A stretch of 64,000 nucleotides of DNA from Microbacterium esteraromaticum (GTDB taxonomy: Bacteria > Actinomycetota > Actinomycetes > Actinomycetales > Microbacteriaceae): the NCBI RefSeq assembly GCF_016907315.1, contig NZ_JAFBBS010000001.1, positions 1,612,001 through 1,676,000 on the forward strand. The letters are read 5' to 3'. The position numbers and the translations under genes were made by a program. Positions 46,962-51,458 of this stretch are shown in pieces. The number at the start of each line of letters is the position of its first letter. The stretch's first letter is position 1. Below the pieces are notes generated by a model. That model was not told the origin of the DNA. It saw only the letters and a program-made list of their open reading frames with translations, and made no database searches.

Positions 46962-47167
46962 GATTCCGCTTCAACGTGAGATTTAAGGTTTGCTCAGGCC
47001 GCGAGCCGATGTGAAGAACCTGGGGAAAGTCAAGTGCGAATACGTCCCGGGCGCGGCGGCCTTCACGCACCCGCTCCGTCATGTGGACTTCTCGCCACGG
47101 CCGCGGTAGATTCTCCCGGTCGAGCTACGTCCGCCCGCCTAGGGACGACTCACCGGGGAGATGTTCC

Positions 47168-48190
47168 GTGCGATTCGCATCTGCAGATCGCCGCAGCCTG
47201 TGGCTGTGGTGTGGTCTCGGCGTCTTCGCATGGCTGATGCTCGCGTCGATCCTCGGGGCTTCGCAGGCGTCGGCCGCTGAGCGACCGGATGCCGCCCCCG
47301 GTGCCTCCGCGTCTGCTGCTGCGCAGCAGCGGGCGAGTCACAGCGACGAGGGCAGGGCGACACCGGCCGAACGCCCGGCGCGGACGGCCGGCCCCGCCGC
47401 CGCCACCAAGCAGGTGACGCCGCGCGCCGAGAAGGCCGCCGCGCCGATGCAGAAGACACCAGCGCCCGTCAAGAAGGCCACAGCCTCGATCGAGAGGGCA
47501 GCAGCGCCCGTCAAGAAGGCCACAGCCTCGATCGAGAAGGCAGCAGCGCCCGTCAAGAAGGCGACCGCGTCGATCGAGAAGGCAGCAGCGCCCGTCAAGA
47601 AGGCGACCGCGTCTGCGAAGAACACGGCTGCCGCGAGCAGCGCGCTCGGTTCCGCCCTGGCCGCCGTGTCTGACAACGCTCGAGGCGACGACAAGGCGAT
47701 GCAGAGCAGCCACGCGCTCGCGATGCAGAAGAGCGACGTCGGCGTCTCTCCCGCCTCCCCTCAGGCAGCAGCGGCCGGCGCACGTCAGGGCCAGGAAGAA
47801 GACGCAGCGCACACCTCGCGCGGTCACGCGGAGGCCCGCGCGGTCACCGGCCATGCCGAGCGAGCGGTCACCGTCGGCACCCACCACAGCTCGAAGCCGT
47901 TTAAGGCCCCCCACACATCCGCCGCTGCCCCGGCGACCGCATCGACCGCCGCTCCCGTGATCGCCGCCGAGTCGGCGCCTGTCGAGGGCCCGGTGCCCGG
48001 CCCGGCATCGAGCACAGCAGCCTCGAGCGGATGCGCCGCCGCATCCGGAGCATCCTCGATCCTGTCCCTGGCTGGAGAGGTCACGGGTCTCGCATCCCGC
48101 CACGGCCTCATCCGTCTCAACTCCTTCGCCAATGCGGCAGACCGGCCACTCGCCGGGCCCGCCGCGGCCACCGACTGTCGCCCTGACTGA
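47168..48190 (+). CDS. Secreted Ala/Lys-rich repeat protein
   Basis: This 340-residue protein begins with an arginine-containing signal peptide (RSLWLWCGLGVFAWLMLASI, cleavage after ASQASA). It has four 14-residue tandem repeats of APVKKATASIEKAA, like histone-tail or wall-binding Lys/Ala segments, then a disordered His/Ala/Pro-rich region. The C-terminal part is hydrophobic in patches (SILSLAGEVTGL) and carries two cysteines (GCAAASG and the final TDC). No sortase motif is seen. GTG 47168 follows CGGGGAGATG. It is the first of three consecutive secreted proteins. Confidence 0.65.
   Translation: MRFASADRRSLWLWCGLGVFAWLMLASILGASQASAAERPDAAPGASASAAAQQRASHSDEGRATPAERPARTAGPAAATKQVTPRAEKAAAPMQKTPAPVKKATASIERAAAPVKKATASIEKAAAPVKKATASIEKAAAPVKKATASAKNTAAASSALGSALAAVSDNARGDDKAMQSSHALAMQKSDVGVSPASPQAAAAGARQGQEEDAAHTSRGHAEARAVTGHAERAVTVGTHHSSKPFKAPHTSAAAPATASTAAPVIAAESAPVEGPVPGPASSTAASSGCAAASGASSILSLAGEVTGLASRHGLIRLNSFANAADRPLAGPAAATDCRPD
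47462..47629 (+). repeat. Four 42-bp tandem repeats
   Basis: Units starting at 47462, 47504, 47546 and 47588 encode APVKKATASIE(R/K)AA. Units 1-2 share AAGGCCACAGCC and units 3-4 share AAGGCGACCGCG, suggesting successive duplications. The fourth unit ends divergently (SAKNTAA). Confidence 0.85.
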
Positions 48191-48618: not shown

Positions 48619-49650
48619 ATGGGCGACGAGACGACCGGGCGCCGCATTCCTGCGGTGTACCTCTGGGGTGCTCTCGTCGTGCTCGCCTGGGTCGCGCTGA
48701 CAGCCCTCGTCGGCGGCGGCGGAGCCAAGGCGGATGAGTCGTCCGACACCCCGCTCTCGGGGCTGACGTCGCTCGTCGGCGACACGGTGGACGACGTCGT
48801 CGCTCCTGTCGCCAAGACCACGACGAAGACGGTCGACCAGGTCGCCGCCCCCGTCACTCAGAGCGTCCAGAAGGTCGTGTCGAAGACGACCTCGACGGTG
48901 GCCGCCGCCCCGGTGGTCGGCAAGCCCGTCGCCGAGACGGTCGCGAAGACCGCTGACACCGTCACCACGGTCACCAAGACGGTCGAGAAGGTCGCTTCGT
49001 CAGCGCCCGTCAGCGCGATCGTGACCCCCGTGACGGATGCTGTGCGCGACGTTCCTGTCGTCGGCGACGTGCTCGAAGACCTCGGCGCAACCGATCTGGT
49101 CGATGAGACCGCGGGCGCCGTGGATGAGGTTCTCGAGACCGTTCCTCCGGTCGTCGGCAGTGCAGTCGATCCCGTCGTCGACGGGCTGCAGCCGAGTATC
49201 CCGGATGACGAGGAGCCGCAGCTCCCGGGTGTGGATGTGCCCGGCGTGAACGTGCCCGGTGTCGACCAGCCGAGCGTCGATGCGCCGACCGTCGTGGTCG
49301 ACCTGCCTGCTGCTGACGTCTCTGCGCCGTCGTCCGACCGGCAGGCGACAAGCATGGACGGGATGCGGGCGAATGCGGCATCCAGCGTCATCCCTCCGGC
49401 CGGCGACGCCATGACCGCAGATGCGACGCGCAGCGCGCCGATCGATCCCAGCGGTGGTCTGCCCACTTCTGCTCCCGGCGCCGTGACCTCGACGACATCC
49501 GCCGGCAACGGCGGGCCGGCTCCCGGCGCGAGCTCTGACACTCCTTCCACCGCGCGGGGCATCGGTGCAATGTCAACGCGCACGGGCATCCCTGCGGATG
49601 CCGCACTGCCGCCGTCTCCGGCGGGCAGCACCGACGTCTCTCCTGACTGA
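48619..49650 (+). CDS. Secreted amphipathic repeat protein
   Basis: This 343-residue protein has an N-terminal export helix (VYLWGALVVLAWVALTALV, ending near GGAKA). About 130 residues of Val/Thr/Pro/Lys repeats follow (VAAPVTQSVQKVVSKTT and VAETVAKTADTVTTVT), predicted to be amphipathic. Next comes a segment of short PGV-type repeats (GVDVPGVNVPGVDQP), and a disordered Ser/Thr/Ala-rich tail. There is no sortase motif or C-terminal helix, so it is probably released or bound to a partner. It is the middle gene of the secreted-protein trio. No family is recognised. Confidence 0.6.
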   Translation: MGDETTGRRIPAVYLWGALVVLAWVALTALVGGGGAKADESSDTPLSGLTSLVGDTVDDVVAPVAKTTTKTVDQVAAPVTQSVQKVVSKTTSTVAAAPVVGKPVAETVAKTADTVTTVTKTVEKVASSAPVSAIVTPVTDAVRDVPVVGDVLEDLGATDLVDETAGAVDEVLETVPPVVGSAVDPVVDGLQPSIPDDEEPQLPGVDVPGVNVPGVDQPSVDAPTVVVDLPAADVSAPSSDRQATSMDGMRANAASSVIPPAGDAMTADATRSAPIDPSGGLPTSAPGAVTSTTSAGNGGPAPGASSDTPSTARGIGAMSTRTGIPADAALPPSPAGSTDVSPD

Positions 49651-49733
49651 CGAGAGGGCGGCCGATCCTCGGATCGGCAAGCCCGGCCGCACGACCGTGC
49701 GGTCTCACACTCGTACAGATCAGGAGTTCTCTC

Positions 49734-51458
49734 ATGAACAAGCAAGTCAAGTACGCCCTGTGGGGCGTGCTGCTGGCCGGCGGCGTCTCGCTGCTCGGCG
49801 CGTCGGCCGCGAACGCGGCCGAGACCAACGGAGACGATGGTCTCCTCTCGGGCACCCAGATCGTCGCTCCGGTCACGGCACCGGTGAACGTCATCGGCAA
49901 TGCCGTGTCGGTGCTCGGCACCAGCGAGGCCGAATCAGGCGCGGATGCTGCACCTGCGGCCCCCGCACCCGCTCCCGCTCCCGCGCCTGCCGCGGAGACG
50001 AGCGGGAACGATGGCATCGGCTCTGGCACCCAAGCCGTGGTCGAGGTCGACGCACCGGTGACGGTGTCGGGCAATGCGGTGAGCGTGCTCGGCGAGTCGT
50101 CTGCCGAGTCGGCTCCGGCCGCAGCGCCGGCACCTGCTCCGGCGCCTGCTCCCACCGCGACCACCTCGGGTTCCGACGGCCTGCTGTCAGGCACGCAGGG
50201 TGTCGTGTCGGTGAACGTGCCGATCACGGTCACTGACAACGCGGTCTCGGTGCTCGGCGAGTCGGCTGCATCCAGCGGCACCACCGGCACCACGACCCAG
50301 CCGGGCACGGGCGGGGCCGACGCCACCACCGACGGCACCGACAGCGCCCTCGGAGGCACCCAGGTGCTCGCACCCATCACCGCACCGGTCACCGTCGGGG
50401 GCAACGCCATCTCCGTCCTCGGAGAATCCGCCGTCACCGGCGGCACCACCGGCACCACGACCCAGCCCGGCTCGGGCGGGGCCGACGCCACCACCGGCGG
50501 CACCGACAGCGCCCTCGGAGGCACCCAGGTGCTCGCACCCATCACCGCACCCGTGAACGTCGGGGGCAACGCCATCTCCGTCCTCGGAGAATCCGCCGTC
50601 ACCGGCGGCACCACCGGCACCACGACCCAGCCCGGCACGGGCGGGGCCGACGCCACCACCGACGGCACCGACAGCACCCTCGGAGGCACCCAGGTGCTCG
50701 CACCCATCACCGCACCGGTCAACGTCGGAGGCAACGCCATCTCCGTCCTCGGAGAATCCGCCGTCACCGGCGACACCACCGGCACCACCGGCACCACCGC
50801 ACCCACGGGCGCAGCCGGCACCGACGCCACCACCGGCGGCACCGACAGCGCCCTCGGAGGCACCCAGGTGCTCGCACCCATCACCGCACCGGTCAACGTC
50901 GGGGGCAATGCCATCTCCGTCCTCGGAGAATCCGCCGTCACCGGCGGCACCACCGGCACCACGACCCAGCCCGGCTCGGGCGGGGCCGTGACCGACGGTG
51001 GAGGCTCGCTACTCGGTGGCACGCAGATCCTCCTGCCGATCACTGCACCGATCACCATCGGCGGCAACGCCATCTCGGTGATCGGCGAGAGCACGGTGGA
51101 CGTGCCTGGCACCACTCCGGGCACCGACCCGGGAACGGACCCCGGAACGGACCCCGGTACTGACCCGGGCACTGACCCCGGCACCGACCCGGGCACCGAC
51201 CCCGGCACCGACCCGGGCACCGACCCCGGCACCGACCCCGGAACGGACCCGGGCACCGACCCCGGCACTGACCCTGGTACGGACCCCGGCACTGAGGGCA
51301 TGAACTCGCCGCGTCACTCAGCCGTGGCCGCGCCCATGGCTGGTGCGCCGGCCCTGGCGATGACCGGCGGCGGCGACATGGCTCCTGCGCTGGCTCTGCT
51401 GGCCGGTCTCATGCTGCTGATCGGAGGATCTCTGATCCGTCGCGCTCGCGCGGCCTGA
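49734..51458 (+). CDS. Chaplin-like repeat protein with TDPG stalk and LAMTG wall anchor
   Basis: This 574-residue protein has a signal peptide cleaved near SAANAAE. Eight repeats follow, of the form GTQVLAPITAPVNVGGNAIS plus VLGES, which match the core of Streptomyces chaplins (PVNVCGNSVSVIG-like) but lack cysteines. Pro/Ala or Thr/Gly linkers separate them, and repeats 4-7 are nearly identical. A stalk of about fifteen TDPG units follows, then LAMTG (residues 541-545; LAxTG is the sortase E motif), a hydrophobic helix and RRARAA. Long chaplins in Streptomyces are anchored by sortase E. A wall-bound functional amyloid is inferred. CAGGAGTTC precedes the ATG. Confidence 0.78.
   Translation: MNKQVKYALWGVLLAGGVSLLGASAANAAETNGDDGLLSGTQIVAPVTAPVNVIGNAVSVLGTSEAESGADAAPAAPAPAPAPAPAAETSGNDGIGSGTQAVVEVDAPVTVSGNAVSVLGESSAESAPAAAPAPAPAPAPTATTSGSDGLLSGTQGVVSVNVPITVTDNAVSVLGESAASSGTTGTTTQPGTGGADATTDGTDSALGGTQVLAPITAPVTVGGNAISVLGESAVTGGTTGTTTQPGSGGADATTGGTDSALGGTQVLAPITAPVNVGGNAISVLGESAVTGGTTGTTTQPGTGGADATTDGTDSTLGGTQVLAPITAPVNVGGNAISVLGESAVTGDTTGTTGTTAPTGAAGTDATTGGTDSALGGTQVLAPITAPVNVGGNAISVLGESAVTGGTTGTTTQPGSGGAVTDGGGSLLGGTQILLPITAPITIGGNAISVIGESTVDVPGTTPGTDPGTDPGTDPGTDPGTDPGTDPGTDPGTDPGTDPGTDPGTDPGTDPGTDPGTDPGTEGMNSPRHSAVAAPMAGAPALAMTGGGDMAPALALLAGLMLLIGGSLIRRARAA
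50355..50940 (+). repeat. Four near-identical 165/174-bp tandem repeats in the chaplin-like gene
   Basis: Starts of the GGCACCCAGGTGCTCGCACC segment lie at 50355, 50520, 50685 and 50859, spacings of 165, 165 and 174 bp. Each codes for one chaplin-like unit plus its Thr/Gly linker. The high identity implies recent duplication or gene conversion. Confidence 0.85.
51115..51297 (+). repeat. Short tandem repeat encoding the TDPG stalk
   Basis: About fifteen 12-bp units (ACNGACCCNGGN type) code for TDPGTDPG. Synonymous variants (GGCACCGACCCG, GGAACGGACCCC, GGTACTGACCCG) are mixed, so the tract has diverged while the peptide is kept. Copy number is likely to vary between strains. Confidence 0.8.

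Follow-up and report, generated by a model that had tools for sequence, protein, structure and literature searches.

The window, a 64,000-nt stretch of Microbacterium esteraromaticum (NZ_JAFBBS010000001.1; a 3.24-Mb genome in one contig), carries a gene for a chaplin-like surface protein of 574 aa, an upstream gene for a second protein with a signal segment (hereafter the partner) and, at the junction of the two, a predicted RNA structure (Table 1). An antisense open frame of 637 codons (49388-51301, minus strand) also runs through the repeat array; it is explained by high GC and the repeats and gives no sign of being a gene. NCBIfam matches of three ORFs to TagH, SMC and TraN fell far under the cut-offs and were discarded.

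Table 1 Coordinates of the features at the chaplin-like locus, in positions of the window.
Feature	Position	Strand	Basis
ORF A, secreted-type, ends ATDCRPD-stop	47081..48190	+	Sequence; TCAGGAG covered by a short predicted stem and followed by an 18-codon ORF (48238)
Partner gene: N-terminal signal segment, amphipathic-helix middle (predicted), C-terminal motif ending ...STDVSPD-stop	48619..49650	+	Profile search, alignment
Codons for the conserved C-terminus of the partner, ADAALPPSPAGSTDVSPD region	49600..49647	+	Relative entropy, 39 partners
Predicted three-way-junction RNA element, spanning the last partner codons through the chaplin ATG	49633..49736	+	Fold, covariance model
Outer stem, 5' arm, CTCCTGACTGACGAG, containing the partner stop codon (49648-49650)	49640..49654	+	Minimum-free-energy and centroid structures
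First inner hairpin	49656..49684	+	Same fold
Second inner hairpin	49685..49704	+	Same fold
Outer stem, 3' arm; chaplin Shine-Dalgarno TCAGGAG at 49720-49726	49710..49726	+	Fold, arm-swap test
Chaplin-like surface protein, eight-repeat, LAMTG-anchored	49734..51458	+	574-aa ORF, PF03777, motif reading
Predicted signal peptide, residues 1-28, MNKQVKYALWG...AANA	49734..49817	+	Cleavage site placed by eye
Eight chaplin-like repeat cores and linkers, residues 40-451	49851..51086	+	Pfam, TRF, sequence
TDPG stalk, 14 units, residues 464-519	51123..51290	+	Sequence
LAMTG sorting motif, then hydrophobic segment and RR (RRARAA)	51354..51368	+	Sequence

The protein matched the chaplin family PF03777 (ChpA-C) at 95.7 bits (cut-off 21, E = 1.5e-27), as did all 38 aligned relatives at E ≤ 0.001. 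A Pfam scan in which E ≤ 1 was allowed delimited eight stretches, a single one of which passes alone at E ≤ 0.001; in the whole-genome search, three pass at this threshold (best 34.1 bits). The repeat cores start at residues 40, 98, 153, 208, 263, 318, 376 and 429. They hold GN once in seven of the eight repeats and DN in repeat 3, as against the three GN expected per chaplin domain (SGN, CGN and FGN in canonical domains from the Streptomyces-like genus considered below), and the whole protein has no cysteine, as against two per domain. Aligned by eye to the canonical domains, GVLSGNVVQVPVHVPVNVCGNTVNVIGLLNPAFGNTCVN matches GLLSGTQIVAPVTAPVNVIGNAVSVLG...; the strand-turn-strand core is kept and the C-terminal GN-Cys part is gone. 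The original prediction of eight cysteine-free chaplin-type repeats, a TDPG stalk and LAMTG followed by a hydrophobic segment and RR thus stands, and its suggestion that repeats 4-7 were duplicated recently agrees with a DNA identity of 96-98% among these four, against 55-70% to repeats 1, 2, 3 and 8; TRF identified a 165-bp unit, repeated 4.3 times. From its sequence, we read the repeat as a reduced form of the chaplin module, with a single GN or DN and neither a third GN nor Cys, and because the third GN and both cysteines are missing, the protein is assigned to a divergent chaplin branch as a cell-wall-anchored, multi-repeat member. Matches to PDB entries (E up to 10), mainly circumsporozoite proteins, arose from the low-complexity stalk and were rejected.

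A whole-genome search with PF04203 returned a single sortase, which is of class E by NF033747 (223 bits, cut-off 160), so that both the chaplin HMM similarity and the class E sortase on which the original prediction had staked itself are present. This sortase aligns over its catalytic domain to SrtE1 of S. coelicolor (5cuw) and has a Tyr at the VGHY/IGMY position, which probably corresponds to the published substrate-specificity Tyr. The chaplin-like protein carries the features of a class E substrate, namely an export signal (judged by eye), LAxTG, a hydrophobic segment and a basic tail, and this enzyme would be expected to anchor it. Since class E sortases are near-general in our sample of the family (182 of 199 genomes at E ≤ 0.001, 175 of them above the cut-off), the sortase alone is weak evidence.

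The protein had been presented as an oddity for a non-filamentous lineage, a view that does not hold: PF03777 was found in 115 of 198 genomes of the genus and in 66 of 299 genomes of the family, where it reached 25 of 85 genera. We fetched 20 loci of the genus and 20 of the family from PF03777 places, five named loci, 17 apparent exceptions and two more. Among the 54 chaplin loci tallied, repeat number ranged from 2 to 11, the lowest counts including broken reading frames, and LAxTG was present in 49, which bears out the expected variation in repeat number between species. The tally leaves out L082 (short contig), L083 (the same locus as L062) and L097, where the repeat profile exceeded the E-value limit and where both the partner and the chaplin-like gene are present; partner loci with other cargo (L088-L092, L102, L103, L143 and L155) were not counted as chaplin loci. 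The nearest named relatives of the window protein come from Microbacterium (four loci) and Glaciihabitans (one locus). Overall, the multi-repeat chaplin-like architecture is a lineage trait, widespread in Microbacterium and its family. A search with one chaplin-like alignment matched 130 of 199 family genomes and was rejected as a chaplin count, many of its matches covering the stalk and anchor only. In L052 (8038-10330) and L094, the chaplin array is split over two reading frames, which could reflect a fault in the assembly, decay of the gene or phase variation in the repeats.

In an even sample of the phylum (396 genomes), PF03777 matched 15 genomes: 11 of one genus, three of the window's family and one (G575) of another family of the same order. 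The genus, with genomes of 6-10 Mb, is presumably Streptomyces. Per domain or repeat, this phylum-wide search gave 43-105 bits in the Streptomyces-like genus and 22-34 bits in the window's family.

The PF03777 match, LAMTG, the class E sortase and the spread in repeat number would all suit a wall-displayed functional amyloid whose length is set by the number of repeats and whose expression is ordinary. The predicted structure of the protein is of low confidence overall (mean pLDDT 46.1) and includes strand segments at pLDDT 67-81 in several repeats. Furthermore, one study reports that cysteine-free ChpE and reduced chaplins of Streptomyces still make fibrils (PMC3079736), and loss of cysteine therefore does not exclude an amyloid. 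However, neither the third GN nor the C-terminal part of the domain is present in the repeats, whereas a review ties rodlets to the near-C-terminal region of short chaplins, and such an account offers no explanation for the partner gene or the RNA. As a reading of the locus, we consider it improbable.

The partner profile has only one match in the genome, the gene directly upstream of the chaplin-like gene (E = 6.3e-72), whose start codon was chosen by its signal segment and RBS. In an alignment of 39 members, partners are about 290-415 aa long, with a middle rich in Val, Thr, Ala and Pro. The hydrophobic moment of this middle peaks at 95-100 degrees, as expected of an alpha-helix (1.27 versus about 0.4 at beta angles, in a scan without a shuffled control), and the structure model is helical at 47-126 with a mean pLDDT of 41.6. 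Given the low pLDDT of both this model and that of the chaplin-like protein, no claim on fold is based on them. The window's partner matched no Pfam or NCBIfam family, and NCBIfam gave no match for any of the 39 partners; Perilipin (one of 39, E = 4e-4) and DUF6987 (one of 39) were hit too rarely to name the family. Conservation is concentrated at the C-terminus, which reads DDxLPxSPxxxTDxSPD: relative entropy across the 39 partners is 2.25 over the last 17 residues versus 0.98 over residues -18 to -60. Pro-Asp-stop ends 57 of 57 partner copies, and one further copy, L150 in G222, ends Pro-Gly, so that the description of this ending as invariant was dropped. The RNA element is present at the Pro-Gly copy (G222:C1:2385066-2385169).

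The partner lies upstream of the chaplin-like gene in 54 of the 54 tallied loci, a count that is partly circular because a CCNGAY-stop pattern was sought, with the printed peptides carrying the longer motif. Nine chaplin genomes had shown no partner match in the first search, a result that proved wrong: all nine had a partner on inspection, recovered independently of the CCNGAY-stop pattern by the partner profile (eight) or by the RNA model and reading frame (one). The flank rplI-rpsR-ssb-rpsF accompanies 24 of 24 Microbacterium loci, with dnaB in 22 of them; the loci fetched from other genera showed none of these flanks, yet there too the chaplin's neighbour is the partner. The two genes are also adjacent in G575 (L142), outside the window's family. 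In the phylum sample, none of the 11 Streptomyces-like genomes had a partner match, and the weak matches outside the family, G575 excepted, look like low complexity. We show that the chaplin-like gene occupies the second position in a conserved unit of two genes. Further upstream in the window, ORF A is unmatched by the partner profile at E ≤ 1 and is probably a decayed extra copy of the partner unit.

The chaplin Shine-Dalgarno lies eight bases ahead of the ATG and falls within a strongly folded junction (-58.2 kcal/mol, z = -6.2, with none of 200 shuffles equally stable). In 20 loci picked from the 54 for spread, z ranged from -3.4 to -6.2, again with 0 of 200 shuffles equally stable in every case. 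When the 54 loci were folded as single sequences, most adopted this overall arrangement; variants occurred, among others, in a bulged group (L063) and in L058. Plain MAFFT alignments of the junctions were too poor to read covariation from and, since alignment-based covariation counts depend on the alignment, an arm-swap test that needs none was used. In 44 of the 54 sequences, each under 80% identity, the duplex of a locus's own two arms averaged -25.65 kcal/mol versus -19.26 kcal/mol for arms taken from another locus; none of 20,000 permutations reached the observed mean, the best being -21.72 kcal/mol. This effect is one on the mean only, the own duplex beating all swaps in one of 44 loci and 95% of them in 12 of 44. 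The ssb-rpsR junction, used as a control in 23 loci, exhibited no effect (15,247 of 20,000 permutations reached the observed value), whereas the chaplin junction of 22 of these loci did (0 of 20,000).

In a 31-locus alignment that was model-fitted to the structure, 85.2% of cells were paired and 29 of 34 pairs changed on both sides, with none of 500 shuffles as high. The Shine-Dalgarno helix contributes less proof (two-sided changes occur in two of its five pairs and in neither of the two pairs of the next helix), little variation being expected of a conserved Shine-Dalgarno. A covariance model built on the 31 loci (R2) recovered the junction element from 50 of 62 loci, among them 19 that had not gone into the model; the other 12 were missed. 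The model had one match only in the window's genome (100.3 bits), and in 100 family genomes it marked 20 places, 18 of which start at a partner stop; the two elsewhere look like chance. The RNA tests did not include L103. Rfam held no match above its gathering score for the junction, three sub-threshold matches having E-values of 2.5-9.3. Taken together, these results support a junction RNA conserved as a structure, modelled as a covarying three-way junction over the chaplin Shine-Dalgarno. The original prediction, which our analysis supports in part, had missed the reduced module, the two-gene unit and this RNA.

With its two inner hairpins, the three-way junction has a more complex layout than a simple hairpin, and one might thus regard the RNA as an element of mRNA stability or as one responsive to a ligand, temperature or a protein, independent of ribosomes. 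We think this unlikely, because in the loci folded the 5' arm lies within the partner's coding end and stop codon, and therefore under the translating ribosome; the hairpin loops also look variable, and no Rfam family covers the element.

Instead, the most probable reading in our judgement is that of translational coupling, in which the ribosome that translates the partner opens the RNA over the chaplin start within the conserved two-gene unit. The gene pairing, the RNA fold, its covariation and the position of the Shine-Dalgarno in the stem support it. The outer stem is predicted to pair the partner's Ser-Pro-Asp-stop codons with the chaplin Shine-Dalgarno, which would keep the start site closed. 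In the cell, a ribosome at the partner stop would cover the 5' arm, upon which the stem would open, the Shine-Dalgarno would be freed and the chaplin could be translated. When the 5' arm was masked, as a crude stand-in for the ribosome, the mean predicted unpaired probability of the Shine-Dalgarno rose from 0.215 to 0.489, with an increase in 52 of 54 loci; in L068 and L097, masking lowered it. As such, the sticky chaplin would be made mainly from messages on which the partner has just been translated. The partner might act together with the chaplin as a surfactant, a chaperone or a component of the coat, and the chaplin might render the surface hydrophobic or adhesive. The purpose of this arrangement could be that an interface-active, sticky protein is made only along with its amphipathic partner.

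A variant of this scheme borrows from SecM: the partner's last ~17 residues might stall the ribosome at the stop codon, perhaps until export of the chain or in response to the state of the surface, and so keep the RNA open while the chaplin is made. The partner would then monitor secretion or the surface, whether in addition to or in place of a role in the coat. An export signal, a variable middle, a conserved C-terminus before the stop and a hidden Shine-Dalgarno together reproduce the layout of secM-secA as described in the literature. At Pro -13, codon positions 1 and 2 are conserved (1.87 bits each) and position 3 is not (0.44), which indicates a constraint on the protein upstream of the stem; residues -17 to -5 as a whole are conserved in a manner that the RNA arm does not explain, and Asp is kept in the three of 54 loci in which its codon is wholly unpaired. 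With the ribosome at the stop codon, this conserved end would sit in the ribosome tunnel, and one study describes peptides ending NSP-stop and NAP-stop that stall with the stop codon in the A-site (PMC10987492). According to the same source, arrest-peptide screens covered only the regions upstream of sec and yidC genes, so a chaplin-linked case would have gone unsampled. Nevertheless, the Ser/Thr-Pro-Asp codons double as the anti-Shine-Dalgarno arm, and their conservation therefore needs no peptide function. The partner, with 292-414 aa in one alignment, is also longer than the 80-200 aa of published screens, its helical middle looks like a product, and the Pro-Gly copy departs from the motif. 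Stalling of this kind is, in our estimate, appreciably less likely than not to occur, and plain coupling by the partner's ribosome is the reading we retain.

The partner and RNA are not confined to chaplins. In six partner loci without chaplin repeats (L088, L089, L090, L091, L143 and L155), what follows is a gene for a different secreted repeat protein, whose signal peptide is of the type seen in the chaplin-like proteins. Anchors are LAYTG in L088, LATTG in L090 and L143, and LPQTG in L089; in L091 and L155, the cargo frame runs off the fetched DNA. The RNA element of L089 is a weak R2 match. In genome G307, a second partner copy with the RNA element (L103, 2849-4185, minus strand) precedes a sigma-70-type (ECF-like) gene with sigma-70 regions 2 and 4 (57.6 and 50.1 bits). 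Here, we show that the partner-RNA module precedes other cargo and not chaplins alone. Combined with stalling, this would make the module a SecM-like device for the surface coat, in which a pause at DDxLPxSPxxxTDxSPD unlocks translation of exchangeable cargo through the conserved junction RNA. We regard this device as a tentative idea, slightly more doubtful than stalling itself. Equally tentative is the view, within it, that the cargo is mostly a multi-chaplin wall protein, at times another anchored repeat protein and once a sigma factor.

Chaplins are taught as the coats of aerial hyphae. Multi-repeat forms are nonetheless common in rods that have no aerial hyphae. A review names Arthrobacter chlorophenolicus as a non-sporulating case and suggests attachment as an older role (PMC4255298). 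The protein itself represents a variant within a known family. No description of the partner family or of the RNA element turned up in the literature searched, and open-access literature contained no report of multi-repeat chaplins in Microbacteriaceae, of the partner or of the RNA, most subscription papers lying outside that search. Partner and RNA predict which protein the chaplin works with and that both are produced jointly. If the coupling holds, simple mutants of the stem or of the stop codon should break the link between partner and chaplin. If the C-terminal motif stalls ribosomes, control by arrest peptides would reach beyond the secretion machinery and include surface proteins, and a SecM-like device would constitute a regulatory module that serves construction of the outer surface, apart from development of the Streptomyces type.

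Among known systems, the long chaplins ChpA-C of Streptomyces resemble the window protein in kind: they are secreted, carry PF03777 repeats with the hydrophobic strand-turn core ...PVxVxGNxxSVxG and an LAxTG-type anchor, and have a class E sortase in the genome. In contrast, they have two full domains where the window protein has about eight reduced repeats and a long TDPG stalk, and the partner that, with the RNA, lies upstream in the window is absent from all 11 sampled genomes of the Streptomyces-like genus. ChpE and the C-terminal domain of ChpB share the absence of cysteine, but each is a single domain or one of two with a fuller GN pattern, whereas the window has an array. CwpA and CwpB of Actinoplanes missouriensis are likewise hydrophobic surface proteins that depend on a class E sortase; the authors conclude that these have no chaplin domains, whereas the window protein has PF03777 repeats. 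On the regulatory side, the operons of secM-secA, mifM, vemP, apcA and apdA also pair an exported upstream protein with a conserved C-terminus, both of which the partner has, and secM in particular has an RNA stem over the downstream Shine-Dalgarno, which prediction, covariation and the arm-swap test indicate here. In the arrest operons, the exported protein is encoded upstream of a sec or yidC gene, whereas in the window a surface protein is downstream (the chaplin-like gene, with other cargo elsewhere) and the motif ends S/T-P-D-stop.
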